From Rhizophagus irregularis (taxonomy: Eukaryota; Glomeromycota; Glomeromycetes; Glomerales; Glomeraceae): a stretch of DNA of 64,000 nucleotides. Positions 17,850 to 53,666 of this stretch are shown piece by piece. Positions within the stretch are counted from its first letter, which is position 1. Every line of letters begins with the position of its first letter. Position numbers and translations under genes: made by a program. The notes beneath the pieces are model-generated. The model was given only the letters and a program-made list of their open reading frames with translations. It was not told the DNA's origin and ran no database searches. The stretch lies in the NCBI RefSeq assembly GCF_026210795.1, contig NC_089441.1, positions 124,001-188,000 on the forward strand, in the 5' to 3' direction.

Positions 17850-18245
17850 TTCAATCCAATTAATTTTAAAATAAAATATGTATATTTTTAATATTTTCGT
17901 CAGTTATTCGTGATATCAGAAAAAATAAAAAAAATTGAAAATAAGGGGTTTTATATGAATAAATGATTATCTTTAATATTAAAATACTTTTTTTAGTAAT
18001 AATTTTAATATACCTCTTTGAATTATATAATACAAATACAATAAATAAATATTTTGCATATCGGTACCCGATATGTGTAAGATTGATTCAGTGTTACATA
18101 TCAGTGACTAATTGTTTAGATGTCAGAAATCCGATTTTTAGGCATATTTGATATGTTATATATTGGGTACCCGATATGTAATAAATGTCCGATATATATC
18201 TGATTAGTCACTGATATATAGGTACCCGATATGTATCCGATAGCA
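17850..18245. repeat. Palindromic GGTACC / CCGATATG word array
   Basis: Between about 18058 and 18240 the word CCGATATG and its complement occur repeatedly, including the 20-bp palindrome-like CATATCGGGTACCCGATATG. The ends are not resolved into clean terminal repeats. It resembles the word-array elements elsewhere in the window. 17850-18050 is plain AT-rich DNA. Confidence 0.45.
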
Positions 18246-18291
18246 TCAATTTTGACTAGTGATTTTTTGTTCTTTCTTACCTTTGCTCTCT

Positions 18292-18411
18292 CCATTTAGG
18301 TCCCAGCTCTTTGGATCTAAGGTGCGTCTTGTTTCATTTTTTGTTTGTTTTGTTTGTTTTGTTTCATTTTTGTTCGTTTTAATCTCTACTCTCTTTCCAT
18401 TTAGGTCCCAG
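18292..18411. repeat. Direct repeat pair CCATTTAGGTCCCAG
   Basis: CCATTTAGGTCCCAG occurs at 18292-18306 and 18397-18411, each preceded by a CTCTCT tract and separated by a TTTGTT-rich stretch. The region to 18545 is purine/pyrimidine-skewed and codes nothing convincing. Confidence 0.5.
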
Positions 18412-18734
18412 TTCTTACATGCAGTGGGTTCTGTATTTTGCTTCTCTTTTTTCGTTGTTGAAGAAAGAGAAAGGAAAAAAAACAAAAGTAAGAAAAGAAA
18501 AAGAAGAAACAAAAAAAGTGAAATAAAAAAAATAAAAAAGTAATGCGTAACATATTTTTATTGTTATCAGATCAATGCTATTGTGTCATGTATGTTATGC
18601 ATCGCAGTTACACAATTTGTAAATAGTTATTTATGTGGGTAGTCTAAACATAACGCAGAGTTTTTAAATATATAAATATTGACTTTAAATTAAAGCTAAT
18701 TAAAATGAAATTTTAAATATAAATTATTTATCAT

Positions 18735-18988
18735 TGGGTCCCATGATCACCAGACATTGAAGATAGGACCTTTATGGCTAAGTGACCCGTTACTAAATGA
18801 AGTCTACTTACAGAGTCAAATGATCACTCGACAGTGCACATGTGAGGTACTACCGGTATGACGAGTGGTTTGTAGTTTAATTATATTAGAGTAGTTATTA
18901 GGGAATTTTACTTTGTATATATTTTCTTTATTTTTTTTACTTTAATAAAACTGCAAATGTGCTGCAAAAAAAAAATAAATAAATAAAT
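18735..18988 (+). mobile_element. Retroposed element (SINE or 5'-truncated LINE) with 14-bp target duplication
   Basis: The insert begins TGGGTCCCATGATCACC and ends AATAAAACTGCAAATGTGCTGC followed by A(10) and TAAATAAATAAAT. It is bounded by perfect 14-bp direct repeats AAATTATTTATCAT at 18721-18734 and 18989-19002. An AATAAA signal, an A-rich tail and a target-site duplication are the hallmarks of LINE-mediated reverse transcription. No Pol III boxes or ORF were recognised. Confidence 0.75.
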
Positions 18989-19251
18989 AAATTATTTATC
19001 ATGTAAACTACAAAAATGTACTAAATTTAATGTAGATTAATTTGTTAATTTTTCAAATACAATACAATTTATCAAAAAAAATGATATATTACTTTTGTGA
19101 TTTTTACATTTTTTAATAAATTAAGCATTTTATAAAAATTAGTAATATATTTTATTATAAATTAAGTGATAAATAAATATTAAATGGTCTAAATTATTAA
19201 AAAAAATCAATTATTTTAATAGTTTATAATTAATTTTATTTAGGTAATATA

Positions 19252-20138
19252 CACCCACCTGCCAAAAGTATCTAGGCACTTCTAAAAAATGACCATTAAA
19301 TCACATTATCTCGACATCCAGTGATCAGAATTTAATGATTTATGATTCATTGGATTCGTCTAATTGAGACGCATCTAACCGCAGTATTTTCAAGTCTGTA
19401 GGTTTTAATAGATCAGAAGTTATCAATAAATGTCTAAAAACAGTAAAATGCAAATAACTTTTGATCCATCAATTCTAGAGATATGAAAATAATAGATACA
19501 ATGTACCTTAACAAGACAAATCTAATGAGTTATATTTCATCTTACTAGGTTTAATAGGGAAGAAAACGTTATGAAATTTGTATTTGCTAAATTTTTAAAG
19601 ATGATGAAAAATGAATTTCTTCATAAAGTTAAATCACATTATTTCAATAACCAGTAATCAGAATTTAATTATTTATGATTCAATGAATTCATATTATCAA
19701 GATGCATCTAATTGCAGTATTATTATGTCTCTAAATTTGATGGATCAGATGTTATTCTCAACAGTAAAATGCAAATAATTCATTTTTTATCTTTAAAAAT
19801 TTAGCAAATACAAATTTCATAACGTTTTCTTCCCTATTAAACCTAGTAAGATGAAATATGACTCATTAGATTTGTTTTGTTAAGGTACATTGTACCTATT
19901 ATTTTCATGTCTCTAGGATTGATGGATCAAAAGTTATTTGCATTTTACTGTTGTTAGACATTTATCGATAATTTCTGATCTATTGAACCTACAGACTTGA
20001 AAATACTGCGGTTAGATGCGTTTCAATAAAACGAATCCAATGAATCACAAATCATTAAATTCTAATTATTGGATGTCTAGATAATGTGATTTAATGGTCA
20101 TTTTTTAGAAGTGCTCGGATACTTTTAGCAGGTGGGTG
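19252..20138. mobile_element. Tc1/mariner-type foldback element, about 330-bp arms, TA target
   Basis: TIRs start CACCCACCTGCCAAAAGTAT (left) and end with ATACTTTTAGCAGGTGGGTG (right), flanked by TA at 19250-19251 and 20139-20140. The arms are inverted copies over about 330 bp each. A third partial direct copy of the left arm (GTTAAATCACATTATTTCAA onward, about 19627-19785) sits between them. TA target and a GCCAAAAGTAT-type end fit Tc1/mariner elements. There is no transposase ORF, so it is non-autonomous. Confidence 0.8.
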
Positions 20139-20249
20139 TATTTAATAATTACTATATTAATATATATAAAACTATGAAATTAATATATATATAACTTATT
20201 GCACTGTGGGATGGTTAACCTATTTTCTGTATTTATGTGGTATGGTATA

Positions 20250-20966
20250 CCTAAGGTTGCTTGTCTAAACCTCTTCAAAATCCTACGTAGAGCTCCGAAC
20301 GAGTCGAGTCAAGTCGAGTTATATGTAAACTCGATTCGACTCGAGTTAAATCGAGTCGAGTCGAGTCGAGTTAAAATTATAAAAATATAAACTCGACTCG
20401 ATTCAAGTCGAGTTGGCCCGTCAAACCGAATCGAGTCGAGTCGAATTAAATCACGTGATTTTAATTCGGCTATGCCGATCATTTCCTTTTTTTGGCGATA
20501 GCCGTTCCACAAAATTCCATTTTTGTAATTTTCAAAAAATTTTCGTCTCGGATTTTGTGTAACATAATTTCCAAAAAAGGAAATTCCATAAATTTGGCCG
20601 GAATTATGTTTAATTCGGCTTAACTCGACTCGACTCGATTTTATTAAATTATTAACTCGACTCGAATTGATTCGATTTGATTGTAATTTTCAACTCGACT
20701 CGACTCGACCAACTCGCGAGTCAACTCGACTCGTTTCGGAGCACTAAATTCCTACGATAAGTTTTGTCAAAATTTTACTATAGATTTATTATAGTTTTGG
20801 CAGAGTTTTGGCAGTTTCAGCATTTATAATAAGTTTCAGCAGTTTCGCCTTTCTCCAAAGTTTTGCCAGTTTTTTAATATAACTTTAATATAGTTTTGGC
20901 AGAATTTCGCTTTTCAGTGAAACGCCATCTTGCCTAAACCCCTAGGTTTTGGCAAGCAACCTTAGG
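20250..20966. mobile_element. TA-flanked element with CCTAAGGTTGCTTG ends, carrying a nested element
   Basis: Left end CCTAAGGTTGCTTG at 20250 and right end CAAGCAACCTTAGG at 20966 are perfect inverted repeats, flanked by TA on both sides (20248-20249, 20967-20968). The host part contains repeats of GTTTTGGCAG. Inside lies the hAT-like element at 20288-20746. Non-autonomous, mariner-like by TA target. Confidence 0.7.
20288..20746. mobile_element. hAT-like element A with GAGTC word arrays
   Basis: Ends TAGAGCTCCGAACGAGTCGA and CGTTTCGGAGCACTA are inverted repeats. Flanks are ATCCTACG (left) and AATTCCTACG (right), an imperfect 8-bp-type target duplication. Both inner flanks carry inverted arrays of the word GAGTC, for example GAGTCGAGTCGAGTCGAG at about 20354. 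The core contains GGCCGGAATTATG. It is the same family as elements at 45777-46134 and 50748-51710 by its TAGTGYTCCGAA-type ends. Confidence 0.7.
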
Positions 20967-20968
20967 TA

Positions 20969-22047
20969 CACCTATTTTGTATGGAGCCAAGTGTTAAAAT
21001 TAATAAACTTTAAATTTAAAATATATATATATATAATTAAAAATATTAAAAAAAAATATATTTTTATTATAAAATTACTAAATTTTTTGTGACAAAGTTT
21101 CCATCTGGCAGCCAGCCTAAATTTTAGATTATAAAAACTGGGAATAATCAGTTGATATAGTCAATATTATTATTTTTTCCTTTTAAAATTTCAAATGATA
21201 TAATTTTTTTTTGGTTAAAAAAAAATCCTTCTTCTTTAGCTTCTCTAAATTTTAATTGTTTATTTTTAAGCTAATTGCAAATAATATCACTGCACTTCAA
21301 CAATAATCACTATCATATAATCCATGCATATTATTAGCAATGAATTATTATTCTTATTGTCCATAACTATGGTATTCTATACCATATATGATACCTTTAC
21401 AAATCACAAGCCTTTTATCTATTTAATTAATCAAGATGCTGCTCCTCCAATTATATTTAACTACTAGTCCCACCTACTATTTCTTCAACTAACACATTTA
21501 ATGATAATAATATTTTATCTTATATAAAACCATTTATAAGTATTAACTCAAATTTAATAAATGAAAGAATCACAACCAGCAATGTGATAATCAACAAAGA
21601 CGATGAACAAATTGTTAATACTGCAGAGTTACAGTGTAATTTTGTTTATTCATACCCTATAAAAAATTTTTATCCAAATATTTCCATTATTTCTCCATGT
21701 CTTCCATAAAAATTCTGTGAAAATGATACATTCATGGATATCCATGTTAGCGAGATGAAAATTTCCATAATTTAAGGCTATAAATTCCATGAAAATGATA
21801 CATTCACAGAAAAAATATGGAAAGATAAAACACAGATCAGATTTTTTACAGGGATAATATTTAACATTTATAGTAAATATAAATTGTATAAATTATTAAT
21901 CTATACTATTTTTTTAGCAGTAGATGAGCTTTTAGATAAACTCGATTTGCATATTATTAGAGATTGCGAAGTGCGTAATAAAATTGCTTATCTATTTATA
22001 TATTATTTATATACTGTATATTAGTATAGTAAACAATAGGTATTTTA
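20969..22047. other. AT-rich gap with one open coding remnant
   Basis: At about 21463-21710 (+) an open stretch without ATG reads LVPPTISSTNTFNDNNILSY, then INSNLINERITTSNVIINKD. It looks like real coding sequence but has no partner exons and is not recognised. The rest is AT-rich, with a loose inverted repeat (TTCCATG / CATGGAT) near 21690-21800. Confidence 0.35.
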
Positions 22048-22248
22048 CCAATAGGCAGTGTATAAAATTTGAAAAAATTATATGTGCACATGTGCACATA
22101 AAGCATTTTTTTTTTGTGCACAATCAAAAAATTTTTATGTAAAATAGTGCACATTTTTATTAATTTTATTAATATTTTCTTTAAGAAATTTTGTGCACAA
22201 TAATGCACATTAAATTTTAAAAATTGTGCACATAAAAATTAAAATGTG

Positions 22249-23015
22249 TAGGGAATTGAGTCGACACCTAAAATCATTGTTCGATTAATTGGTTAAAATT
22301 TTTTAGGCAAGATCAACCAAAATCGACTAACAAGCTGTAATCGATTAAAGTTCGATTAAGTACACTCGATCTAATAAAATCGAACAATTAATCGAACAAT
22401 TAATCGATTAAATGTCATAAATAATTAGTATTTTATTAGTAAATTAAAAATTAATAAAAATAAAAATAATAAATTATATAAATTTTATGCAGTTTTATAC
22501 TTTCACATTATTTATTTATAATATATATTAATAATACACACGCCCGTCTGTTTTCTCTACAAAGTAATCCCGTTTTATTTGCAGTTTTTGGTATAATTTG
22601 TGGTTCTTGTTCATCTGTAATATCACTTGCCAAATGTTTTGATGTGTGTAAAGATTCAGTGGAACTATTTGCACGTTTTGGAGGCATTATTTACGTTAAA
22701 AGAGTTTATTAATACTATAAGCAGAGAGTGTAAAAGAAAGAAACTTTCTTACTTGTTACAAAGAAAAATTAGCAAAGTTGCTATTTTAAGATTTTATCAT
22801 GTTTATTTAACCAATTTATCGTTAAAGCATGATTAATTATTTTAATCAATTTATTTTATTCGAGTATTATATAATCGATTTTACATGTTTCAAATTTATT
22901 CGATTATATGTTGATCAATTTTAATTTTTCGAGTACTCGATACACAAAATCATTAGTCGAGTCACTTGACTTGATCGACCATGATCGATTTTGAATTGGT
23001 CGACTCAATTCCCTA
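22249..23015. mobile_element. Inner hAT-like element with ATCGA word arrays, inserted in the outer one
   Basis: TIRs TAGGGAATTGAGTCGAC and GTCGACTCAATTCCCTA are perfect inverted repeats, flanked by perfect 8-bp direct repeats AAAATGTG at 22241-22248 and 23016-23023. The TAGGG end resembles those of Ac-type hAT elements. Arrays of ATCGATTAA/TCGAACAATTAA lie inside both ends. A short ORF on the minus strand (22687-22508) may be the remains of its transposase start. Confidence 0.85.
22508..22687 (-). pseudogene. Possible N-terminal remnant of a hAT transposase (59 aa)
   Basis: The minus-strand ORF MPPKRANSSTESLHTSKHLA runs on to DITDEQEPQIIPKTANKTGL and a TAA. It lies in the middle of the inner hAT-like element. 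A basic Ser/Thr-rich start is usual for transposases, and an internally deleted derivative would keep just this part. No BED zinc finger or catalytic residue is present, so assignment is positional inference only. Confidence 0.35.
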
Positions 23016-23068
23016 AAAATGTGCACATGTGCACATTGTGCACATGAATTTTATACACTGCCAATAGG

Positions 23069-24653
23069 AGTTTGCCGGCGGCGATCATCGCCGGTATCAC
23101 GTGATTTTTAATTTGGCCGGAATTATAGTATCATACTAAAAGCAATTTTATTACCAATAATATGTAATGTATCAAAAACATCAAAGATATTTAATAATTT
23201 ATCTAAAAAATATCAGTATTGTTAAAAAATAATGATCCTATTTGGCTGCATGATAATTAATAATTACACCATAATATTATGAGTAACTTCACAGTTACAC
23301 TTTAAGAAATGCAATTTTATTGGTTAATTTGCTCATGTGGCCAAATACATGCATTACTCCATGACCCATGAAGTCAATTCCCAGTATGACTGTGAAAAAT
23401 CCATCCAATTTGAAAAGGCTAAAATTTTTTTATGAAAAATAAATATTTGCAAGTAAAAAAATGGACAAAAACCAAGAGTGAAAAGACTGTTCCAACTTCT
23501 TTCAAACAATGTGTGAAAGATTTTGTTCCAAATGAGAGGTCAAATCGTACATCTTCAACAAAATTTAAAGATATATATGTGTCAAATATTTTTTATATAA
23601 CCACGTCATACGAAATGATCTTTTCAAGAAGCGTTAGCTCATATTACAATAATGGGCTTCTGGAAAATTAGTCGAAGAGCGTTATTTCTATCAATTTATA
23701 TAAATAAAGAATCGAGATAAATATTTCAATGTGGAAAAAAAAAAATTAATTTGTATCCTTGAACAATGGTTTAACTTTCCATTTTTGCTTTCAATGAAGT
23801 TAGTAATACCATAACATTATGTGTGACGATTTCTGTTCCATGGAATATACTTAAATTCCAATAAACGTTTGAAAATGTGCCAAGAAATTCAATTAAAAAT
23901 TGATAAATTAAATTCGAATAATGTATTATCCGATATTATTTCATTGTAGTTATATTATTTCATTGTTTTATGGTAATTATTTTTCTCTCAATTGTAATAA
24001 CCAAATCTTTTTAAGAGTTTCAAAAGCAGGCATTATTAATAAATTTGGTTTTAAAAAATATGCAAAAAACGTTGATCGTGTTTGGAAATTAATGGGTTTT
24101 CTTTGATATTACCTATCAAGTAGAAAATATCAGTTCCAAAAATTGATTTATTTATCTATTTATTTATTTTTAATAAAATTTAACTATTCAAGTATAAAAA
24201 ATAACGTGTAATTCATTTACAATAATTTATCACGTATAACCACCACATTACCGGCACAATTATTTTTCCGGTCAGTTACACATAATATAAAGAATATCAG
24301 TTGTTTGTTTTAATAAGATCTACGATTATTTATATTATGGATGAACAGAAATTTTCGAAACGTCGCACAGCACACTCTTAAATAATCACTTTTTTTTGGT
24401 GATATTTCTATTTAAACAACAAATAATTTATTTTCATTATCTTGTTGTTTCTTTTCTTTTCTTTTCTTCTTTTCTTTATTTTTTTTTTATTTTATTTGAT
24501 CATTGTTATTAAATAGTTTTCCTTCGTTTACATTATAAGTAAAAAAAAAATTATCTCCTCAAAAAAAAAAATTTGAATTTCCTAAAAAATATTTTCCCTC
24601 TTTTACATTTTTTTTTTTATAAATCTTTTTTCTTATCTTCTTTTTATAAAATT
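23069..24653. other. Intergenic, small unassigned ORF
   Basis: The ORF at 23432-23671 (+) codes MKNKYLQVKKWTKTKSEKTV onward (79 aa), basic, with no recognised domain. It could be a gene remnant. The rest is AT-rich. A CTTTT-repeat tract (about 24449-24478) and T-rich leader precede the methyltransferase start. Confidence 0.3.
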
Positions 24654-25767
24654 ATGGGACATGTTGGTTCGAAAAGTAATTTAAATCCTAATAATAACAA
24701 TCGAAGTTCACGTAAAAGCTCATCATCAATTTCAAAAAAACATTCATTTAGATATGCTAACGGTAGAAGATTTCATAATGATGAAAATTCAATGTATTTC
24801 TTACCAAATGATGAAGAAGAAGGTTAGTTAAATTACTTTTTTGTATAATGATCACCATATATGGGAATAAATTTTTAAAGTAACCAATAAAAAAAAATAT
24901 ATATATATATACTGTATATATTTTCAGTTGATAGACTACAATTAGAACATTTCTTGTTTAGATATATTTGGGAAGATAATTTTTCATCGCCGATTAGAGA
25001 TTTGATCGACAAAGGTGATGCAAAAGTATTAGACGTTGGGTAAGTAGTAAAATATGGCTAATCGGTTAAATTCTATCGGCCCGAATAATTTTAACCTTTA
25101 TATATTTAGATGTGGACCTGGAACTTGGTTGTTAGATATGTCAACAGATTTTCCACGAAGTTCATTTACGGGAGTTGATATGTCACCAATTTACCCTGGT
25201 GATATAAAACCACGTAATTTAACATTTCATACAGCAAACGTATTAGAGGGTTTACCATTCTCTGATAATACTTTTGATTTTGTCTACATGAGATTCTTGA
25301 TGACCGCTTTCACAGAAGATGATTGGCAGAATAAAGTTATTAAAGAATTAATCAGAGTATGTAAACCAGGTGGATGGATAGAAATTATGGAAGGTGATTT
25401 GGTTTTCAATCCTGAAGGTCCAGCTGGAAAAAGACTGATGGATGCATACCGATCAACACTTGAATCCAAACAAATTAATCCAAAGATAATCAACCATCTT
25501 CAATCTATTCTCTCTTCTACAGAAACTTTATCTTGTTTAACAACTAAAGAAAAATCTGGTCCAATAGGTACTTGGGCTGGAAGAATAGGGGAATTATCAT
25601 ATCAAAATTTTTCACAAACCTTACGAGCTTTAAAACCTGTACTCTGTAAATTAATGGAATGTGCTGGTGAAGAATATGATGAATTGATGGAGGAATTTGG
25701 AAGAGAGTGCAACTCGAATAATACTAATTTCGTACATTTTAGATTTTTTGCTAAGAAGGTCGAATGA
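24654..25767 (+). CDS. Class I SAM-dependent methyltransferase (312 aa)
   Basis: Exons are 24654-24822, 24928-25039 and 25110-25767, with GT-AG introns of 105 and 70 nt, all in frame. MGHVGSKSNLNP is chosen as the start; the upstream in-frame ATG at 24573 would add a Phe/Ser-rich leader without support. Residues 1-55 are Ser/Asn-rich and low in structure. AKVLDVGCGPGTWLLDM (about 88-104), created by the second splice, is motif I of Rossmann-fold methyltransferases. VLEGLPFSDNTFDFVYMRF (motif II/III region) and LIRVCKPGGWIEIMEGD (post-I strand) follow in proper order. The fold binds S-adenosylmethionine; the substrate cannot be told. Many fungal genomes, including AM fungi, carry several such proteins, often of unknown role. 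Confidence 0.9.
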
Positions 25768-26665
25768 AATGAGGATCTATGTTGTATAGAAATTACACAT
25801 TTGAAGTTTGAACACTCTCGATCGAATCATCTTTCAATAAACACTTTTTTAAATATTTCCACATAATAACAACAAATAACATAATTATAATTATAATATT
25901 TAATTCAATTTATTTATGCTAAAAATTATAAACCTTTAAGCATCATTTTACGAAATTAATTATTAATTTTAAGCTAGTTAACATAATTTTTTATTGCACA
26001 ATCAATAAACAAAATATGAATAAATTTTTTTATGGGATCAACAAAATTATAAATTTTTGTAACATCAAATAATTAAAATATGATAAAGTATTTATTTTAC
26101 GGTAGGTAATACACGGAAGCAAATCTAAATTCAGATTACGATCTTATTGAGATTATAGGATATGGTGATCATCATTCATTTATTAAAAATACGCCTAAAA
26201 TTGTAGTATTAATGTTACATTAAGTTCTAGACTCGTAAATAAATATGATACGATATTTTTTTTTTGTTTACTTATTTATTTATTTATTTATTTTAAAAAA
26301 AGAAAAAAGAATTGTTTAATTTATGCAAGTATTATTTGTTTTTTCTTTCTCTCTATTTTTTTTTTTTTTTTTTTTTTGAAAAAGTAACATTGCATTGTTA
26401 CGCAAAAAAAAAACCAATATGTATGCAATGTATGCATAAGATGCATAAGATGCAATAGATGCATACTTGGAGTAATGTACCCGAGTTGAAATTTGTTGGG
26501 CACATTTATTTGTATTGTACTCTCGGCGCTAAAAATAAACAAATGAATGATTTAATCAGCAAAGATTCTAATAAAATCAACATTTAAGTCCTCATTCAAT
26601 CCTTCTGCTCCTACAATTAGACTAATTAATGCGAAGAACAATTTCATAATAAAATAAGTAATTAA

Positions 26666-26720
<55 letters not shown>

Positions 26721-28438
26721 TGCATCTGTATTAAAAAAAAAGGTGGCGTTTTCAAACGTACGAATTATTATTTTCAAAAAATTAATTTTTCTATATAAAA
26801 ACGAAAAAAATCCCTTAATTCTTAGGCTATCCTTGCATGAAAGAGACTTGTTTATTTTTGTTACAAAAATAAATAAGTTATTTATTTATAGATTTTTAAC
26901 ATCAAAGTTAATATAATGGTAAATTCGGATAGGATAAAATAAAAGAGAGATTAAAGGTTGTTGTGATACCATGCGATATTTCAAAAACGCCCATTTTCCC
27001 ATTGTTTTATTGTTTTAAGATTCACGGATTTCAAATTTCTTTAATTTCTTCACAAATAAAAATAAAACAAAAAAAAAAGGGTCTAGACGCATTATGTAAC
27101 ATGATGCAAATATTATACGCGTAATATATATGATATATAATATATATGCATTATTTGACGCGATAAACGGCTCATGGTGAATTTTTTAATTTCCGAATAT
27201 TAATTGTAATACCTAGCTATTATTCATATAAATATTCCCCTAAAATTCTTCTTTGTGTTGTACTAATTATAAATAATTCACATATATGGTTGTTTTTAAA
27301 TTTTTATTAAAATTTAAAATAAGTCTAGATTGAACTGTGATATAACTGAATCGTATTACATAATAGTCGTTTTTGAAAACCAGTTAAAATACTTAAAATA
27401 TTCTCGTTTAATTGAAAATCTCCCGATTTGAATATTATACATAAACAAATATAGTAACAATTACTGTAATTACTATCAGTTATGATTCTGGCCTACATTA
27501 TAATTCTCAAAATCTTATGACAAAAATATCAACCAATCAAATTAAATGACTAAGATGTCCCCAAATTACCAAATTTAAATTTTATTCAGAATATCGTTTA
27601 TAAATTATATTTTATATTAATTGATAAAATGAAGTGTATAATAGTACGAAAAGGAGAAAAGAACAAAAATTATTGATTTTTTTTCACTCAATATTCTTTT
27701 CTCGCCCCGAATAGAATTGGTGAATAATCCTAATCCTCCCTTAATTAATTTAAAGTATTATGATTTAATTATGAAGCAGTTTTTTCGTGAAATAACTAAA
27801 ATTCGTTCCTGGTCGATGAGATTAATATCGAAAATTAATTGTTCACTGTAGTAAAATTAAGTATTGTCCTTTGTATTACATGTTAGTGTCACTACTCTCA
27901 CGATCATGCATTATAACGTTGATCCAGAATGACCAGAAAAAGGGTATCCAATTAAACACTATTCACTAATATTATAACGCCTTTTTTGTTAATGGATCTA
28001 CTTGATTTTCTTCATCACGATATTATTCCTAAGAACGGAGGGTGATCATTTCAGTCAAGCACGAATCATCTTTTAACGGTCTAACCTCTTTCTACTCGAT
28101 AGTCCCGATACTATTCATACAAAATCTTCCAATTTTTTTACGATTCAGCAATTAATTCGAATGATTATTTTTAGAATTTCGTGTGAATTGAGATAGCAGA
28201 TCTATCAATGAAGATTGAGCCTTTTTAAGTTATATGAAGTTTATATTATATGATAAGAATTTCTTTAAATAATAATTCCATTCGAAAGGGTTATCATGAA
28301 ATAAAAAAAGACCATGTAAAGTTGCGATCATCTAACCTGGTATTTTTCTATAAATGATCACTCTGAAACACTTTTTTTTTAAAAAAAAAAAAATCCCCCC
28401 TTTTTTTTAAAAAAAATAATATTGCTATTTTCATAAAA
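25768..28438. other. Intergenic, microsatellites only
   Basis: 2.7 kb without a credible gene. It contains a T-run at about 26357-26377, TGCATAAGA repeats near 26437, a (TAA)17 microsatellite at 26667-26717, and A/T runs just before the UNC93-like gene. ORFs across the poly-T and TAA tracts are artefacts. Confidence 0.6.
26667..26717. repeat. (TAA)n microsatellite, about 17 units
   Basis: An uninterrupted trinucleotide run of 51 bp. Confidence 0.9.
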
Positions 28439-30014: not shown

Positions 30015-30151
30015 CGATAAAATAATTTTGGAATAATTTTTTTTAACTCTCAATTCACATAATACTTTATAATTTTATTTTTTTTTTTTGGATTTTTTTT
30101 AATATAATATATACATATATATATATCGTAAAAACTATAAGAAAGCAGCGA

Positions 30152-36336: not shown

Positions 36337-36349
36337 CTCATTAATGAAC

Positions 36350-42736: not shown

Positions 42737-42960
42737 TAATGGAAGATTATTTCAAAAGCTTCTATTTTATTAGAAAAATTATTATTAATATCCATTTCAT
42801 TTTCAAATTCTTCAGAATCTTTGTCTGATTCTTCATTTGGTTTTTCAACTAATTTTTTATCTGATTTTTCATCTAATTCTTTATCTAATTCTTTATCTAG
42901 TGATTCTTTATCTGGTAATTCTTTATCTAATTCTTTTTCTTTTATAATTTCAAATTCTGC
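42737..42960 (-). pseudogene. Acidic, LDKEL-repeat coding remnant
   Basis: The minus strand is open for about 74 codons without ATG: AEFEIIKEKELDKELPDKES, then LDKELDEKSDKKLVEKPNEE, then NNFSNKIEAFEIIFH and TAA. The repeat is GAATTAGATAA. It looks like the acidic C-terminal tail of a decayed gene, possibly a transposase; not recognised. Confidence 0.3.
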
Positions 42961-42991
42961 TTATAAAAGTTGGGTTGTAAAATACTGAGTA

Positions 42992-43182
42992 TAGTCAGAT
43001 CCCTATATAGTTATTTAATCGATTAATGATTATATATAGGGCTTTTATTATGATGTGATTATACAACTGAAAAATTTTTTTATATAATAATATATATATT
43101 AATACTTTTCAAAGGTGTGATTATATAGAGGAATTTTATATAATGTGACTATATGGAGTGTAATTATATAGAGATCTGACTG
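42992..43182. mobile_element. 191-bp TA-flanked MITE with AGTCAGATC ends
   Basis: Ends TAGTCAGATCCCTATATAG and CTATATAGAGATCTGACTG (last base 43182) are inverted repeats with TA at 42990-42991 and 43183-43184. The interior consists of repeats such as GTGATTATAT. Mariner/pogo-like by target site. Confidence 0.65.
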
Positions 43183-43184
43183 TA

Positions 43185-45683
43185 ATTGGTAAAGAATCTT
43201 TAGCTACTTTAGTATATATTTTTGATGGATCATACTTTCTATAATATGATGCAGTAGAATTTCCAGTATAAAGTGTTCTTTTTTTATCAGTTTTTGGAAT
43301 TTATTAAAAATTGTTAAAAATTTGTAATAAAAAAATAAATTCATTATATTAAAAAAAGAATTATAAAACCTTTATTTATCTAAACAAAAGATAGTTCTTC
43401 TAATTTTAATATTCTTGAGTACAATAATTTTCATTTGAACTATTTGTTAAATAATTATTATCAGATTCATATTTGTACTTATCTGAATATTGCATTACAA
43501 ACTGACTAGAATTTATATTATGAAGTTAATTTTTTTAATAGCTAATTTTTTACAAGAAATAGGAAGAATATAATTTGTAATAAATAAAAACTACAAAATT
43601 TTTTTTTTCAAATTTTTCTAACAAAATGTGGATAAATTTATAAGCTAGAATAATTTATTTGTACAAGTACTATTAATGATATTTTTTTATATTACATAAA
43701 AATTACTTATTTTCAAATTTTTCCTATCATAGTAAATTACCTGATTGTTAAAATTTACTATTTTTTAATTTAACCCAACAAGTTTAAAAGCTATTGATAT
43801 ATTTCATTAAAATTATTGGTTAGAATTTTAAAATATTATTTTTTAATAATATCTTTTTAAAAATATCATATTATAATTATATAATTAGGTTGGTTATAAA
43901 GGTATTGTACTATATAAACAAATGGATCAGAAGGATTAGGTGTTAATGATATTACTAATTTTATGTTTATGATTATAAATTAGTACAAATCATATATAAT
44001 GTATTGAATTAATAAATTATTCTTTAGCTTAATAATGATATAAAAAATTGCAATAACTTGGCTAGTTTCAGTATAAAAGTATTTCTGTTTTGATATATAA
44101 TATATCTAAGATTTTATTATTTACGTAAATATGAAAGTTTTTATATATCTACAATATAGCAAGATTTTTTCATTTTATATAATACAATAATAATATACTT
44201 AAAGTTTTTTATAAATATTATTAAACATAATTCTATTTTAAGTTACATTATTTTTTGCTATTAATTATTTATTTATATTTAGTTTTTTATAAAAGATAAC
44301 ACTACAAAAATCATATTATATACCAATTAAAAATAAAATTACTTTTAAGTGAAAGATTCATACAGTAATGCCAAATTCACTAATTTCTAATAAAATAAAA
44401 AAGCAAATAAAAAAACAAAATATATTTATTTATTATTGTTATTTTCAATTTAGTGTGATTATAGTATAATACCTAAAAATAATCAATTTTTAAAAATTTG
44501 TAAATACCCATAATTTTTTTAAATAATCAGCTAGAAAAAGGTTGATTACTTATAATTACTGAGAAAAATCATGGAAAATTCCTAATTATTTAAGTAGTTT
44601 ACTTATAAAAAACTGTTATTATTATATAAAATTAAAAAATTTGCTTATAAGTAAACTATTTGAAAAATTGAGATTTTTTTATAATTTCTATTGATATTCA
44701 CAAGTTATCAACTATTTTTTAAATGATTTTTTAGAAAAATTATAGGTATTCACAAAATTTTAATAATCATATTTTTATAGAAGTGCTAGTTATGATCACA
44801 TTAAATTGAAAATAGCAATAATAAAGATTTTTTTCAAGTACATTGTATTGTAATTATTTCTCTATATTACCTATTTATTATATAGCCATTTTTTTTTCAG
44901 AATATAAGAAGAAAAAGTAAAACTTTATATAAAAATGCGAGATTCTTAAATTTAGGGTATGTAGAGGAAATTTAAACTTCTGTAATACTAGAGCTGATAA
45001 TTCCCTTTTTTATAATTTTGTATAATACCACATGACATCTTGACCAATGAGAGTAAGGTTACACAATATACATATATGGGATATAGGATAAATAGGATTA
45101 TAATAAATAGAATGAAATAAATGGGATATAGAATGGAATATAAGTGGAATGGAATATGGAATTCTTTCAATCTCATTTATATAAGCAATAAGTATAATAC
45201 TATTTATATAATATAGTTTTGGTACTTTCAGATTTTTTTATTAAGAATCTAATCTTTGGTGATTAGATTATCTTGTTTCTTATTAGTATTTACTAAACTT
45301 TCAACTAAAGATGGGTTTACAAATGATTTTTTAAATCCACAATATTGCAAATTTTGGAGTTAAATTGCGGTTAGTAACTCGCAATTCTGCAATTAACATT
45401 TTTAAATAATAATAAAAAGTAAAACTTTTTTTGAGGTTTTTTAAAATTATTTTAATAAAATTTTATTTATTTATTATAAATAATACTAGTATAAAGTTCG
45501 TCTTAAATACAAACTAATGAAATAATATAATTGCACTATTTCTTAGAAAGTGGATAATTTTATCCATTTTTTTAAAATAAATCTTACTGCATCTAAATTC
45601 TGGTTGTTTTTTTCTGGAAGCTTTAAAAAAAGAAAAAAAATAAATTATTAAATTTATTAAAAAAAAATAATAAAATCTCTCCA
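43185..45683. other. AT-rich stretch without recognised genes
   Basis: Extremely AT-rich. A short GGAATGGAATATGGAAT purine-rich tract lies near 45140. Around 45340-45400 the words GCAAATTTT and TTGCGGTTAG begin a diffuse array that is seen again at 46610-46850. No gene was found. Confidence 0.45.
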
Positions 45684-46560
45684 GTCCTTTGATTCTTTAC
45701 CTTAATTTTACAGAAACTCTATAAAATTACAAAAAAGAACAAAAATAAATAAAAAAAATAGTGAAAACCTTTTGGCTAGTACTCCAAACGAGTTGAGTTG
45801 AGTTGAGTTGGCCCATCAAACCAAATTGAGTTGAGTTGAATTAAATCACGTGATTTTCTTCGGCTATGCTGATCATTTCCTTTTTTGGCGATAACCATTT
45901 ACAAATTCCATTTTTGTAATTTTCAAAATTTTTCGTCTCGAATTTTGTGTAATATAATTTCCAAAAAAGGAAATTCTATGAATTTGGCCGGAATTATGTT
46001 TAATTTGGCTTAACTCGACTTGACTCAATTTTATTAAATTATTAACTCGATTCGACTCGATTCGATTTGATTGTAATTTTCAATTCGACTTGACTCGACC
46101 AACTCGTGAGTCAATTTGACTCATTTCAGAGTCTTTCAAATTTTAAAAGTCTGGTCATATTTTTTGTCTAGCAATTCTATAAAGAAAAAAAATAAAGTTA
46201 ATTAGATTTATTAAAAAAAAAATAACAAAAACTTACTTTATTAAAAAATAAACTTTAAAAAAAATTAATGAAAACTCTATCCTGGCCTTCTCTTACTTCA
46301 ATTTCAAAAGTCCAGTTATATTTTATGTCCAGTAACTCTACAAAAACAAAAAAAAAATCTATTAAAAAAAAATAAACTTATTAAAAAAATAATAAAAATT
46401 TCATCTTACCTCAATGAAGTTCGGTTATGCTTTATATCTGGCAATTTTACAAAAATGAATAAAAAATAAATTAATTAAAAAAAATTTAAAATAACTTCCT
46501 TTTTGTTTCCTCCTTACCTCCATTTCAAAAAGTATTTCAAAAAGTCCACTTTTGTACAGA
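45684..46560. repeat. About five degenerate tandem units, roughly 110-150 bp, interrupted by a hAT-like element
   Basis: Units containing CTTACCTCAATTTCAAAAGT, then CCAGTTATATTTTATGTCCA and CTCTACAAAAA occur at about 45684, 46135, 46280, 46405 and 46510, each followed by an A-rich spacer. The element at 45777-46134 sits between units one and two. Confidence 0.5.
45777..46134. mobile_element. hAT-like element B, CpG-decayed relative of element A
   Basis: It aligns from end to end with 20288-20746 (shared core GGCCGGAATTATGTTTAATT, shared CACGTGATTTT), with the left end TAGTACTCCAAACGAG. Most differences are CG to TG or CA, for example GAGTCGAGTCGAG against GAGTTGAGTTGAG. The right end is too decayed to read a target duplication. 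Confidence 0.65.
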
Positions 46561-46609
46561 ATTTCAATAAAAAAAAAAAGATTATTGTATCATCTCGATA
46601 ATCTAATTT

Positions 46610-46850
46610 TCAGTTTGTTCGCAAATATTCTGTAAATCTGCAAATGGTTGCTAGTACTGCAATTTTTCCGCAAATAAATTATGGTATTAGTGGCCATTTG
46701 CAGATTTGCGGAATATTTGCAGATTTGCAAATAATTATGGATTGCAGAATTGTGAATATTTAGCTTTCAAAAGCTGCAATATTTTGCAATACTGCAAATC
46801 ACAATTATTTCGCAATTGCCTATTTGCGGCACTATCCTTACTTTCAATAG
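46610..46850. repeat. GCAAATATT / TTTGCAG word array
   Basis: Dense direct and inverted copies of TTTGCAGATTTGCA, GCAAATATTC and GCAATATTTTGCAATACTGC, with a related patch at 45340-45400. The array ends with CTATTTGCGGCACTA, which would fit a TAGTG-type hAT terminus, but the opposite end was not found. Confidence 0.45.
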
Positions 46851-46893
46851 AATAATTTTTCATTTTTCAGAAAATAATATTCTTGCTTATATA

Positions 46894-47419
46894 CAGTTAG
46901 CCCTTTCTATAGCGAATTTTGATATAACAAATTTCACGATATAATGAATTCTTAGTGTGATACGTATTTAATCATATGAAAAAAAATTTATTACACCAAA
47001 TTTTACTAATAAAATGCAGTATAACGTTAAACGAAGAAAATTTTATAAATTCACATATGTAAATGACTCTTTTATACTGAATTTCTTTTAAAATGAATTT
47101 TTTTTTTAGTATAATGAAGATTTTGCAAGATAAATTTTAAAGGCAATTTAATGTTGATTTGATGAAATTTTTTTAAATAAGCAATTTTACCACTTTTAAT
47201 TCATTTATCAAAAGATGGGTGGTTTATGTTTCAAAAGTTTCCTTTTCTTTTTCATGATCATGACGTTTTACAAATGTATTGATTTCCCTATATTTTATTA
47301 TACTATATTATACCAAATTTTCTGCTATATCAAATAATCCATTATAGCATTAATGAATTTACTTATAATAAAGGTCTGATCAGCCTGGACGCTTACTTTG
47401 TTATACCGAGGGCCAACTG
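46894..47419. mobile_element. 526-bp TA-flanked element with CAGTTAGCCCT ends (pogo/mariner-like)
   Basis: Left CAGTTAGCCCTTTCTATAGC and right ACCGAGGGCCAACTG are inverted repeats, flanked by TA (46892-46893, 47420-47421). Subterminal words such as GATATAACAAAT recur. No ORF; non-autonomous. Confidence 0.7.
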
Positions 47420-47639
47420 TAGTGCACTTTTACTATTAGTTGTATTTGTAATTAGAGAAAAGCTAATTGTAATAGATTTAAAAAAATAACTACTACTCAA
47501 ATTGAAAAGTTGCTTCTGATTTTGATTAACTAATATATCTGCTCTATATTTAATTATATTAGTATTGATTAAAAGTATTTGGTTAGCATTATCATTATTA
47601 TAAATATTTGTATAGATATAAATACAGATAGTAAATTTT

Positions 47640-49530
47640 TAAATATTATGGCCTTTACTTTTGGCAAATACTCCAGAAAAAACTTTAATAACTTTTCTTC
47701 CTTTAATATTATTACCACTACTATTATTATTACTATCACTGCCATTATTATTACTATCATTATCACCATAATTTCTATTATCATCTTCATTTTTATTACT
47801 TTTTATTTTTCCAAATCTTTACCTTTTCTTATTATTTGACTTATTTCCACTAAGTCTACTGGATTCTCCTGAAATACTACCACTATTACTATTACTTATG
47901 TAATTGGTTGTTTCTATCATTTCACATACAACTTTAAATTCATCATCATATATCTTTTTCAAGTTATTCTAGAGTTAATTTGCTTAAAGGTACTATTACC
48001 TAACAGGTAATGCATAGAAAGTTATAATTTCCATAAAAGTTAGAACCAATAAAATATACTAATTGTGATTTGAGTATATATACAATTAATACAATTCTTC
48101 TTATTAATAAGTAGTTTATATAATTGTTCAACTTTAATGAATAAATTTAAAGAAAACAGTATACTTTACACTACTTTTAATACTAGGTGGGCAAAAATAA
48201 ATTCTATTATAGATAATATTATCCAGTGTTCGGAAATGACCTGGTCATTTGACCATTTAAATGATTTATGAAATCATTTGTTATTATTCATAATCATTTG
48301 TTATTTGGTCATTTCAATCATTTGATTTTAATTGGCTAATATTTATCACATAAATAATCATGTGACTATAATTAAAAAATAATGAATGTAATGTAGGCAA
48401 AAATCATAATGCTGGCCAAAATTACATTCAAATGATTAAAATTATTTGTCATTTGAGTATTGAAATGACATGTCATTTGTCATTTATTATTTGAATCATT
48501 TGGTCATTTCAAGTTATTTGCCGAACACTGATTATCATCAGCATCATATTTTTCTGTTTTGGCCATTTTTTCAAGTGAGATTGTCTCATTATGTTTTTTT
48601 CTTTTTTTAATATTGGATCAATTAGAACTGTACCTTTTAAATTTCTGTTACATATGTGATGATAAAAGTCACACCAGATGATACAGTATTTTTAACTAAT
48701 CTTTGATTTTGATTATGAGAAGTGTTACCTTAGGAGTTGGTTTTATATTAATTTGTTCATAAATCTTTCTTTTGATATCAATCCACTTGTTTTCAAACCA
48801 CTTACACATTCTGTTTTTAAACTCTAAAGACAATCTACAATAGAACATAGACCTAATCTATATTTAAATAACTATTCAAATTAAAAATATTTTTTCATTC
48901 AGTAATTATATCAACTATAATAGTATTAAATCATACCTGATAGTACTCAAGATATAAGGTATTTTTTTCTTACTTTTATTAACAACAAGATTCACTGCTT
49001 TTGTTACTAATATATCAACAATATTACATCCATCTTTAAACATCCAACCAGCTTTATTTTGTTTATAAATATATTAAATAACATAGTGTTTAGTCAATTT
49101 TTGATTCCATATCAAAGTTTGACTTTAGTTAATCTTTAGAATCAAGCTGTATAAATTTTTCTTTCAGTTCAAATATTTTGATTGATAAGTTTTTCAAATG
49201 CTTTCTTTCTATGTTATGTGGTGAAATCGCAAGTTCTTTAACCTTTATGTGATTTGAAATGTATAACAATTGTACCCTCTAAGCAAATATTATTATCATT
49301 GTAAATAATTTTATCACCAACAACAAGCTTTTTTTCATTGACACATTTTTTGAAGGTAATATGATCAGAAGGTGGATCAATAACAATATAGTATTTCCTA
49401 GTATCAAAACACTCAGAGATAAGTTTTGTTAAAGGCAACTCTTCACCTCCTAGGAATGTCTTAATGTTGACAAAAGATTTAGATTCTATGAGGATTTGTT
49501 TATCACTTAACTTGTCAAGAGAAAGATTCT
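47640..49530 (-). pseudogene. Decayed multi-exon gene, unrecognised
   Basis: Read on the minus strand, pieces in order are KLSDKQILIESKSFVNIKTF with LPLTKLISECFDTRKYYIVI (about 49520-49238, stop TAG), QNKAGWMFKDGCNIVDILVT with KSKKKIPYILSTIR ending at a GTATGA donor (about 49075-48940), LSLEFKNRMCKWFENKWIDI with KRKIYEQINIKPTPK ending at a GT donor (about 48840-48730), and DDEFKVVCEMIETTNYISNS followed by a Ser/Asn-rich tract with an in-frame TAA (about 47955-47690). A hAT-like MITE (48224-48530) sits between the last two. The conserved-looking pieces and splice sites show a former gene; function unknown. Confidence 0.5.
48224..48530. mobile_element. hAT-like MITE D with AAATGATT word arrays
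   Basis: Ends CAGTGTTCGGAAATGACC and GCCGAACACTG are inverted repeats. Flanks share ATTATC directly at both ends. Inside, CATTTGA/AAATGATT words form inverted arrays. CAGTG ends suggest hAT, though only 6 bp of duplication are intact. Confidence 0.65.
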
Positions 49531-50349
49531 AACTTTAAAATTTTGAGTCTGTTGTCATATGAGAAAAGTGGCCACCTTTTTCACAAGACCATAACAAGTG
49601 ATGTTAAGTTAAAATTAAATAAAATAAGAACTTTATTAAATAACTTAGTTTATTATTACATAAAAATATTAAGACACAAATTTTGGGTTATAAAATATAA
49701 TATTTATTGGGTTAAAATTATTACATTGTAAAAATAGTACTTAAAAATAAAGATTATATAATATCTGAATGTAAGAAAGTTAGGGTACTTATTTTAGGAT
49801 TGTTAACTTATAATGTTTCCATAAGTATTAGTTATTTACTGATCTAGTAGTACACAGTGAAATTCGATAAACTGGATCTATCAGTTTCACTAAAAATATC
49901 CGGTTTATCGGGATATCCGGTATAGCGAAAAAATTTCGATATATTGGAAATCTATTATACTGAATTTTTTTAAAGAATTCATGCTAATAAAATTAATATA
50001 CACTATATTTTAATTTTTTATCTTAGTTTTAAGTTGAAAATAAATATAAAATATTTTTAATTGAATATATAAGTAATATAGGACCCCAGACATCACATAT
50101 ATAACTCACATTTGAGTTTTAGCAAATTCAATCAAAATTAGGTTAAACTCATAATTTTAGAAAGAGCAAATTGATTGAAAATTAATTAATAGTCATAATT
50201 ATGAGTTTTAGCAAATTGTATTGATTTTACAAAGTCATATTTTATATTTGAGCAAATTGGTACTTTTTTTTAAATTTAACTTATCCTTTGTTTTTAACTT
50301 TATAAATAATATTTTTAAAAATATTAGTTTCGGGGTCCGGGTCATATTT

Positions 50350-50440
50350 TGGCCAAAATTAAGTATAATTCCGGCCAAAATTAAGTATAATTCCGGCCAA
50401 AATTAAGTATAATTCCGGCCAAAATTAAGCATAATGCGGG
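50350..50440. repeat. Four tandem units of CCGGCCAAAATTAAGTATAA
   Basis: Near-perfect repeat, period about 24 bp, inside the middle element. A related single copy (CTGGCCAAAATTAAGATTTA) lies at about 51776. Confidence 0.85.
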
Positions 50441-50747
50441 CCAAAACCCGTCCGTTTAGTTTCGCAACATTTTATTTTTTAATAATTATTTATTTAATTT
50501 ATTATTTTTATTAATTATTATTTTATCTATAATCTACATATTTTAATTATAAAAATTGGCAGTTTAATTTATATTAATCATTTATTTTTTTATTGATAAT
50601 AAAAAAAAGATTATTAACTCATATTTTGAGTTTTAGCAAATTAGTATAGATTTGAAATGTGATAATTTGATTTTTAGCAAATTAGGTCTATTTTAGCAGG
50701 AGCAAAAAGTACTTAAATTCATGCAGATCAGTTATGAGTTATATATG

Positions 50748-51710
50748 TAGTGTTCCGAACGGATCAAATCAGATCGGATTTGAGATGAATCTGATCTGAT
50801 CCAAATTCGGATCAAAAAAAATGGATCCGATCCGATCTGAATCTGAAACAGACTTGATTCGATTCGGTCTGAATTCAATTCGGATTTATCCAATCCGATC
50901 CAAATCCGAAATTTAAAAAACATTGCAAAACATTTTTTATTATTAATTTATTGAAAAAAAAACGTTTCACAACATTTTTTTAACGATTTTAATAAAAAAC
51001 GTTGCGAAACGTTTTTATTTTTAATTTAAAATAAAAAATACCGTTTTGCAACGGTTTTTTTTACTATTTTAATAAAAAACATTGCGAAACATTTTTTATT
51101 ATTAATTTATCGAAAAAAAAACATTTTGCAACATTTTTTTAACGATTTAATAAAAAACGTTGCGAAACGTTTTTTATTTTTAATTTAAAATAAAAAATAC
51201 CGTTTTGCAACGGTTTTTTTTACTATTTTAATAAAAAATGTTGCGAAACGTTTTTTATTATTAATTTATTGAAAAAAATACCATTTCGCAACGGTTTTTT
51301 TAACTATTTTAATAAAAAAATGTTGCGAAACGTTTTTTATTATTAATTTATCGAAAAAAAACTTTTTTAACGATTTTAATAAAAAACGTTGCGAAACGTT
51401 TTTTATTATTAATTTATTGAAGAAAAAAACGTTTCGCAACGTTTTTTTTGATTTTAATAAAAAACGTTGTGAAACGTTTTTTATTTACCATTTCGCAATG
51501 GTTTTGAACTGGATCCGATCCAGATCCATTCGAATCAATCCAATCCAATCCAATTTTAATGAATTGTTGATCCGATCTGATCCGATCTGAAACGGATCAA
51601 ATTTTTTTGATTCGGATCGGATCATGGATCATAAAATATATGGTCCAATCTGATCTGTCACGGATCAGATCCACGGATATGAATCGGATCAGTTTTTTTT
51701 CAGAACACTA
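50748..51710. mobile_element. hAT-like element C with GGATC word arrays, perfect 8-bp target duplication
   Basis: Ends TAGTGTTCCGAACGGATC and TTTCAGAACACTA are inverted repeats, flanked by perfect 8-bp repeats TATATATG at 50740-50747 and 51711-51718. Both ends carry inverted arrays of GGATC/GATCC (about 50760-50910 and 51510-51690). The centre is an array of palindromic GTTGCGAAAC units. Confidence 0.85.
50918..51490. repeat. Palindromic array of AACGTTGCGAAACGTT units
   Basis: About seven units (near 50998, 51080, 51148, 51237, 51320, 51386 and 51463; spacing 65-90 bp) of AACGTTGCGAAACGTT, alternating with inverted CGTTTCGCAACG and A/T spacers. Some units show CG to TG/CA changes (ACATTGCAAAACATT). 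Each pair can fold as a long hairpin. Confidence 0.8.
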
Positions 51711-52268
51711 TATATATGTGATGTCCAGGGTCCTAGTAATATATAACTTCGGCTGGAATTAAGATTTTTATAATTCTGGCCAAAATTAAGATTTACCGCA
51801 TCACGTTACTTAAATTTTATTGGTTATATACTTTTCGTCAAAATGACAAAATACTAATTAAATTTATTTTGACAGACGTAATGTATTTTGACAGACGTAA
51901 TTAATTCATAGTAATTTTATAATAAATAGTGAATTGGTCCGTTCGCCGAAATATGATGTAATTAATTAGCGGAGAAGTATAATTGGTTAGTGGTCACATG
52001 ACCCGGTTTATCAAATCATTTTTACTATAGCTGGTTAGAAAATTGATCCGTTATATCAAATATCGAGCTTTTACTAATAAACTCCGGTATATCAAAACTA
52101 TTTTAATATACGTGATTTAGTTCCAGCAAAAAAATCTGGTTTAGGGCCAAATCCAGTTTATCGAAGATCCAGTTTATCGAATTTCACTGTGTATATCAAT
52201 GGGTTATCATCTGAAGGATGATGACCCATTTATATACTAAACTAGATCAGTAAATACTGTATATCACA

Positions 52269-52555
52269 GGCCATAGTACCCCCCTATGCATAGTACCCCC
52301 TTGAAAAATTTCATAGAATTGTATAGTACCTGAGGGGATATTTTACAATTATCTCGTGATCTAGTGATCAGATTTGAGCCATCTTTTTTTTGTTTGATAG
52401 CTCTCATTGAGGTCTTCAAAATAAAAAAAGATCGTTCAAATTGGACTGGTAGATCGTGAGATATTCGCAAAAAATGGAATTTTTAGGCTTTGTTTAGTAC
52501 CCGGGGGTACAGGGTCAACCCCCGATTTTTGCAAGATACCCGGGGTACTGTGGCC
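52269..52555. mobile_element. Short inverted-repeat element with GGCCATAGTACCCC ends
   Basis: Left GGCCATAGTACCCCC and right GGGGTACTGTGGCC are inverted repeats with one mismatch. The interior repeats AGTACCCCC and GTACCCGGG motifs. Target duplication not clear. Confidence 0.55.
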
Positions 52556-53432
52556 CACTATATATGGTAACTTTTTTATCATCCTAGATATACTAATTGG
52601 TCCGCCAGTTTATAATTGGCGGAAAAAATCCTAAATACCAATTAGTAGCCAGGTGATAATTACTATTATTATTTTAAAATGTTTATCACCATATGGGTCT
52701 TTTATTTTCATATTCGTTCATAATAAAATGATCTACATCACGTGATAATTAATTATTTTAATATTGCGCCACATATTACGAAGTAGTTACTGACCTATCT
52801 ACTATTTTTAATGATGGTAAAATAATGACACTATACCGTTACCGCCAAAACCAATGTTTCTTTTCTTAATGGCTTCCACGAGATTTCCAACTGTCACATT
52901 TTCTTTTTGATTTTAAAAATGTCTTCATAAGAATAATCGTCTATGATCAAGCAGTTTATAAGTATTGTAGCCATTTTTTTGTTGTATAAAAAACAGAATA
53001 ACAGATATTTGCCAAAAAAACAAAACTGTTAATCAGGGATATACAAGTAAATCTAGTTTGCACCTTTAGTCACTAACTACACAGAGCACCCCCAGTAATA
53101 AAAGTCAATCCATTTTTTATATTCCATCTTTTTTCTGTAAAAGGCTCATATTTCTGGAATTAATAACCTTATATCACGGAATTTATCAAATTATTTACAT
53201 TTTCCGTGAATGGATCCGTGAAAGGCTCATTTTTACGGAGTTTTTACAGAAATAACGGATAAATTTTTTTATAGTGACCGTAACCAAAAGTACAGTCACG
53301 GGATATTTTGATTGTACTACAAAACAAAATGTCCAATCAAAAACATCCCTCCTATTCATTAATAACTTGCCGATAAAAATTTGTATTATGAATATTAAGT
53401 TTTAGGTATCTGATCAAAATCTCAACAGTCAC
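52556..53432. other. Intergenic with small hairpins
   Basis: CCGCCAGTTTATAATTGGCGG near 52609 is a hairpin inside a larger CTAATTGG / CCAATTAG inverted pair. TTCCGTGAATGGATCCGTGA with CACGGAA words lies near 53170-53250. No gene was seen. Confidence 0.4.
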
Positions 53433-53666
53433 TTGCACGACTAACACAAGATTGACAACAAAATCTCAACAATCCAAAATCTCAGCAATCCAAAATCCTG
53501 ACAAGTCATTATATTGACAATTTTGTGATGTGTGTTCTAATAAAATAATTTTTGCAATATGTAATATTTAGTTTAAGTGTGTTATAATTTTGTTGGGATT
53601 TTGACTTTCAGGATTTTGACTTGTCATTGTCGAGATTTTGTTGTCAGTCTTGTGTCAGTCGCTCAA
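53433..53666. mobile_element. Foldback element with about 40-bp inverted ends
   Basis: Left TTGCACGACTAACACAAGAT then TGACAACAAAATCTC is matched in reverse by GAGATTTTGTTGTCA then GTCTTGTGTCAGTCGCTCAA on the right, with a few transitions. Inside, CAATCCAAAATC words repeat. No target duplication was seen. Confidence 0.6.

Follow-up and report, generated by a model that had tools for sequence, protein, structure and literature searches.

hAT elements in the window and their terminal words

The stretch of the Rhizophagus irregularis genome analyzed here (64,000 bp; contig NC_089441.1, positions 124,001 to 188,000; GC 27%), which we call the window and to which all coordinates without a locus number or contig prefix refer, contains short transposable elements, some of them nested, in which copies of a single short word are clustered at the ends. 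Based on their target site duplications (TSDs), hAT-type ends and, for the first three, the confinement of their words to those ends, the elements with the words GAGTC, GGATC, ATCGA and GTGCAC are hAT transposons with subterminal repeats, mostly non-autonomous ones (miniature inverted-repeat transposable elements, MITEs). The original prediction for this stretch had proposed one architecture, a short terminal inverted repeat (TIR) enclosing an inverted array of one word, at nine places. Five of these were recovered as such (20288, 22249, 22056, 50748 and 48224) and three were not (50079, 18058 and 45777); the array at 46610 is a possible further case.

The ends were assigned with a scan for 8-bp TSDs (≤1 mismatch) next to hAT-like inverted ends in the window and 91 further loci (L-numbered), a non-random sample retrieved by hAT, GAGTC and GTGCAC queries from the genome (146.7 Mb, 32 contigs). 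The scan returned 24 units belonging to eight end families versus none in a mirror decoy, and a stricter version (exact TSD, 1600-bp limit) returned 21 versus none. Four of the 24 units duplicate another (L031, two in L061, L074/L075), leaving 20 places, and since the scan imposes a YA..G start on the ends, the hAT model is not presupposed in the TSD and the inverted match alone. Inside the window the units were the GTGCAC, ATCGA and GGATC elements and the TAAGGTTGCTTG element at 20252..20964. The 8-bp TSD is perfect in GTGCAC, ATCGA and GGATC, as well as in autA and autB, two transposase-bearing elements described below, and a short YA..G-type TIR is present in the scan units and in the AAATGATT element. 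The expectation of one word per family proved right for most cases.

The GAGTC MITE (20288..20746, TIR TAGAGCTCCGAACGAG / TAGTGCTCCGAAACGAG) belongs to a large family with 254 first-look genome candidates, 40 of which were scored; its single long frame has no Pfam match. The TSD of the window copy itself fails, and among 24 sister copies (30 retrieved, six incomplete matches excluded) the TSD matches at 7-8 of 8 bp in 15. In some copies (the right ends in L033, L034 and L039) an additional GAC separates the TIR from what appears to be the target duplication. The MITE interrupts the outer, hAT-like TAAGGTTGCTTG element (TIR TAAGGTTGCTTGTC / TAAGGTTGCTTGCC, 13/14; TSD GGTATACC/GGTACACC), which is present in L002 as an unbroken 244-bp copy with eight copies of the word CGAAAC. 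The element at 45777..46137 (right end approximate), which had been counted as a separate case, belongs to the 20288 family (90% over 336 bp) as a degenerate copy, shortened on the left, in which GAGTC often reads GAGTT.

A second nested pair is formed by the GTGCAC element (22056..23060; TIR CAGTGTATAAAATT, 14/14; TSD CCAATAGG), with nine unevenly spaced GTGCAC words, and the ATCGA element that interrupts it (22249..23015; TIR TAGGGAATTGAGTC, 14/14; TSD AAAATGTG). Unbroken GTGCAC copies of 163 and 229 bp occur in L074 and L064, respectively, and the family has 28 first-look genome candidates. An assignment of the ATCGA element to Tc1/mariner, suggested by TA flanks seen by eye, was ruled out by its exact 8-bp TSD. 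The GGATC element occupies 50748..51710 (TIR TAGTGTTCCGAACG / TAGTGTTCTGAAAA, 11/14; TSD TATATATG). At 48224..48530 is the AAATGATT (TCATTT) element, with the TIR CAGTGTTCGG and a TSD of just 6 bp (ATTATC, by eye). This element represents a repeat family with defined boundaries: of 116 first-look candidates 40 were scored, and among the 46 rows that matched, 16 start exactly at 48224, 17 end exactly at 48530 and six do both, and 26 start 0-3 bases before the former and 30 end 0-3 bases after the latter position.

The position of the words is stronger evidence than their enrichment. Every copy counted lies within 200 bp of an element end: 27 for GAGTC (as CGAGT/ACTCG), 20 for GGATC/GATCC, 17 for ATCGA/TCGAT, 27 for the ATCCGG element in L062 and 19 for the AGGTC element in L007. 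The interiors of the four long elements (GGATC, ATCGA, L062 and L007) contain no words, the GAGTC element (457 bp) having no separate interior, and there are none in the 300-bp flanks except one beside L062 (the left flank in L007 comprises four bases). The words of these five elements are thus confined to the outer 200 bp and are not equally dense outside the TIR-bounded units. For enrichment, the best 6-mer in each of 18 segments was compared with 200 dinucleotide shuffles and with 150 window segments of the same length. Both comparisons flatter the claim, because the segments were selected by eye. The best 6-mer exceeded all 200 shuffles in 16 of the 18 segments; the two exceptions were 45779-46137, whose score was reached by one shuffle of 200, and a small element in L091 (three of 200). 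The best 6-mer was sometimes a word other than the predicted one (CAGATC in the GGATC element, AACTCA in GAGTTTTAGC and CTGCAA in GCAAAT).

Transposase-bearing copies

Searches for the hAT dimerisation domain gave 835 genome candidates, 150 of which were scored, all 150 with a match. Two transposase-bearing elements were read at both ends: autA (L092+L018, 2448 bp, TSD GTTTTTAT) and autB (L093+L022, 3311 bp, TSD TATAGTAT). Both have Pfam matches to zf-BED, the hAT-like RNase-H domain and the hAT dimerisation domain, with RNase-H scores just over the cut-off of 27 bits (27.4 and 29.5, respectively), and Hermes is a PDB match for the dimerisation part of autA. The ends of autA, TAGGGATG, resemble the end of Ac. 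The word AACCG occurs 14 times in autA and AAGCC 16 times in autB, in each case with 13 copies within 200 bp of the ends (the count began five bases late in autB). The base-reading residues of Hermes are Q64, S66, N67 and R70, ahead of the zinc histidine H71, and there are additional backbone contacts (PMC10368747). At the equivalent places (-1, -4, -5 and -7 from the first zinc histidine, aligned by eye) autA has R, T, S and P, and autB has D, T, G and S; these differences would fit with the two elements having different words, but prove nothing.

The end and word of autA are also linked to BED fingers elsewhere in the genome. Exact matches to the 3' end plus word number 17, and in 16 of these a BED finger lies 2106-2112 bp away, oriented toward the end; the 17th adjoins a dimerisation domain. 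The match at C19:30770 is near a BED at C19:32739. With up to three mismatches there are 38 matches, 20 of them with such a BED within 5 kb. A third element beside autA and autB, in L010, was read at its 3' end only (TAGGGATGGGGACGG, with CGGTTC-like words by eye). A 310-bp unit at C15:1625034-1625343 has autA-type ends on both sides, with GGTCCGG or GGACCGG replacing the GGTTCGG of autA, and is a small word change within this second end type.

For GAGTC, two types of end were searched. A pattern for the first type, with three mismatches allowed, gave 110 matches versus 11 for the reversed control, so that a few of the weakest may be due to chance. The second type gave 52 genome matches, three of which have an inward-reading BED match 350, 337 and 371 bp inside, whereas none of 20,000 random placements yielded more than one. 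Two of these three copies are closed by a first-type GAGTC end 3.14 and 3.25 kb past the start of the BED (C8:247330 and C18:2636939). At C19:1742834, a GAGTC-like end next to a hAT gene was considered as the gene's own end and rejected, as it belongs to an independent small MITE flanked by a TSD of its own (CTGCCATG, by eye). Two GGGTC-type ends at C2:5702900-5706135 point toward each other across 3.24 kb; this is a possible further transposase-bearing copy, and no hAT or BED match among those listed lies inside it.

What the words may do and how they differ

We estimate at roughly 85% the probability that most of these elements are hAT transposons whose word arrays are likely binding sites for the BED domain of their transposase, each transposase family having its own word. 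Each end consists of a short TIR followed by 100-200 bp in which one short word is repeated many times in both orientations. The matching hAT transposase would dock on this array with its BED zinc finger and so be brought to the TIR. Binding of this kind is predicted here and has been demonstrated for the subterminal repeats of Ac, Hermes and Herves, and the words sit where hAT transposases bind (PMC3260210, PMC10368747, PMC3143072), in agreement with the argument of the original prediction that class II transposases bind such repeats. Its suggestion that the arrays arose by amplification of binding sites is plausible. Its further suggestion, fast co-evolution of word and transposase, finds indirect support in one end type whose words are one transition apart and in the differing residues of two BED fingers at the base-reading places; both the co-change and its speed are putative.

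This layout has known counterparts. Ac/Ds of maize has AAACGG subterminal repeats, an 11-bp TIR and an 8-bp TSD; the repeats lie within 200 bp of the ends and are bound cooperatively by the Ac transposase, and there are many non-autonomous relatives (PMC3260210). Hermes of the house fly has AAG(T/C) repeats read by its BED finger, which become denser toward the tips (17 and 14 per end), and shares with the elements described here the RNase-H fold, the C-terminal hAT dimerisation domain and a quasi-palindromic word pair (PMC10368747). Element-specific subterminal motifs are also described for Herves (CG/AATTCAT, bound by the transposase at both ends; PMC3143072) and Kat1 (AATTCA, six copies; PMC4763223), one element being studied in each case. 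The differences are that the Ac/Ds family has one word, whereas the genome analyzed here has several, in part behind a shared end type, and that the Hermes account deals with a 4-bp motif of a single element and emphasizes its asymmetric ends (PMC10368747). On the protein side, the hAT-derived CGGBP proteins have BED-type domains with diverse DNA preferences, often CGG and some AT-rich; one AT-rich motif belongs to a Rhizophagus irregularis protein, and for four hATs the preferred motif agrees with the subterminal DNA of the element itself (PMC8097297). Unlike the present analysis, that survey, in its available text, describes neither word arrays nor families that share ends and differ in word (PMC8097297).

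A number of observations weigh against binding sites matched to family-specific transposases. The best 6-mer exceeded all 150 window segments in just eight of the 18 segments; scores were reached by 15 window segments for ATCGA, 13 for 45779-46137, eight for an element in L091, two for AAATGATT and one each for GAGTTTTAGC, CCGATATG and GCAAAT. The pairing of words with transposases that the original prediction sought was obtained for autA and autB, with both ends read, and for GAGTC by the BED finger alone, and no transposase was tied to GGATC, GTGCAC, ATCGA or AAATGATT. The frame of autB is broken by a TGA that follows the RNase-H part and precedes the dimerisation part, as it is in a second copy on C29, and 18 of the 38 autA-end matches have no listed BED within 5 kb, some of them perhaps being MITEs. 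The GAGTC BED matches are weak (E 3.7e-4 to 9.3e-4, 26/44 positions), each with a stop, and none of 84 RNase-H matches or of the 150 scored (of 835) dimerisation matches lies inside these copies, which consequently look like dead transposase-bearing copies. The comparison of these matches with random placements used a 600-bp limit chosen after the matches were known. When a 5-kb distance was used, a BED pointed to three of the 100 listed among the 110 first-type ends, one of which belongs to the separate MITE at C19:1742834, and two or more such ends were obtained in 37 of 2000 random sets. Finally, the GAGTC words are not better preserved than their surroundings: across the 24 copies, non-CpG divergence is 2.7% in words versus 1.6% elsewhere, and CpG sites diverge by 13% both inside and outside words. 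In this family, the sole one tested, the words are not visibly kept by selection after insertion, with which the GAGTT words at 45777 agree; the words would therefore matter, if at all, during transposition itself.

The relation between words and ends is most evident in one end type. Related ends, TAG.GYTCCKAA, precede GAGTC and GGATC in the window, AGGTC in L007 and AGATC in L025. The last two contribute no TSD: the L007 element starts three bases from the beginning of its locus, and no right end was found for the one in L025. GYTCCKAA followed by two RRRTC words has 280 matches in the genome versus none for the reversed control, and the words AGATC, GGATC, AGGTC, GGGTC and GAGTC are each one transition from another. 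Among 100 listed matches the second word was AGGTC in 47, GAGTC in 19, GGGTC in 15, AGATC in eight, AAGTC in eight and GAATC in three; since the pattern admits RRRTC words alone, these counts say nothing about the number of other words behind this end or about larger steps. GGGTC arrays were seen just as two or three words next to the end. Other words do follow loosely similar ends in L062 (ATCCGG-type words, TIR TAGTGCCTCGACCC) and L064 (GGATAA-type, TIR TAGTGTTTGGATCC).

We tentatively consider that hAT families of this end type radiated by stepwise exchange of the pentamer across their terminal arrays, yielding sets of transposase and ends that no longer cross-react, although we would not give this even odds. 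The single-transition steps after GYTCCKAA are observed; that finger and word changed together would be their cause. An alternative that we regard as equally tentative is that one tolerant transposase, itself unchanged, accepts all RRRTC words, and that each MITE family goes back to a founder copy whose array had drifted and become uniform through slippage. Mixed pairs do exist, with GGGTC followed by AGGTC in 40 of the 100 listed matches, the BED of Hermes reads two related motifs (PMC10368747), and the restricted search could not have revealed larger steps. Against a single tolerant protein, AGATC as second word was found solely with the end GCTCCTAAC (8/8, among the matches listed), which links word and end subtype there; other words share end subtypes. 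Stepwise exchange across whole arrays may also have left a trace in the element interiors. The GGATC element is filled by a satellite of ~79-bp units (AACGTTGCGAAACGTT, 50914-51485) that also fills the AGGTC element in L007 (~140-375), the two being 72% alike over 259 bp despite their different words. Such a satellite could also have been captured, and for this reason we dropped common interiors as proof of descent.

Two further explanations would deny the words any role in transposase binding. Growth of the arrays by replication slippage, as in microsatellites, is improbable: GAGTC, AGATC and AGGTC units are often head to tail, but both ends carry the same word in both directions, the GTGCAC spacing is uneven, the interiors of the long elements are without words and the transposase-bearing elements share the layout. 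A function in DNA folding (hairpins of inverted words) or small-RNA silencing, to which the imperfect inverted repeats formed by the element ends might point, is the least probable of all, as folding would account neither for family-specific words nor for their confinement to 200 bp.

The kind of element and the kind of end are already known; less usual are the number of different words that this genome contains and the one-step ladder that they form behind one end type. Our literature search found no report of TIR-sharing hAT families with different word arrays (titles and abstract openings, with sparse coverage of subscription journals), and the word "subterminal" does not occur in the available text of PMC11075540 and PMC8647823. 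The elements bear on how a transposase and its ends can change specificity while remaining mobile. Should stepwise exchange be correct, the RRRTC code would amount to a natural series of lock-and-key changes within a single nucleus, the steps of which are directly testable because the families share a genome and an end type, differ by one letter in their words and, for some words, are tied to transposase-bearing copies. In R. irregularis, two-thirds of transposable elements are reported as unclassified (PMC11075540), and the combination of word and end offers a handle for repeat classification.

Further arrays and repeats

The GGATC element is enclosed by a longer one at 50079..51735, with TAGGACCC ends that start with TAGGA instead of the YA..G type and no clear 8-bp TSD. 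Its word (GAGTTTTAGCAAATT) had been predicted to form an inverted array, but AGCAAATT occurs in six copies in one direction and none in the other, so that the array has a single orientation, and the ends of the element are not of the hAT type. Repeats with TAGGACCCC/TAAGACCCC ends, non-hAT as judged from these ends and with a putative duplication of TA or of 6 bp, include 50079-51735, L025 923-1198 and L010 from 2247.

The scan for TSDs and hAT ends gave no unit at two other arrays in the window, the GCAAAT/CTGCAA array (46610..46843) and the CCGATA array (CCGATATG, six copies, 18057..18248). The former has a relative in L025 (CCGCAA x9) that is 81% identical over 140 bp. For the latter, which had been offered as a further case of the shared architecture, no TIR or TSD was found. 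More arrays are present at L091 236-365, L025 684-915 and 3010-3150, and L055 2784-2915: ATCAAATC beside TAGGGTTCTG, GATCTGATC beside TAGTGCTCCTAAC, TTGCGG, and ATTACGGC (a 132-bp element). The 6-mer scores of the ATCAAATC and ATTACGGC arrays were each reached by three of the 150 window segments. Lastly, a module GGCCGGAATTA / GGCCAAAATTA, sometimes near ATCACGTGAT, recurs inside or beside elements of differing words, at 20596, 23115, 45986, 48414 and 50351-50427 in the window and at 1100-1300 in L062.

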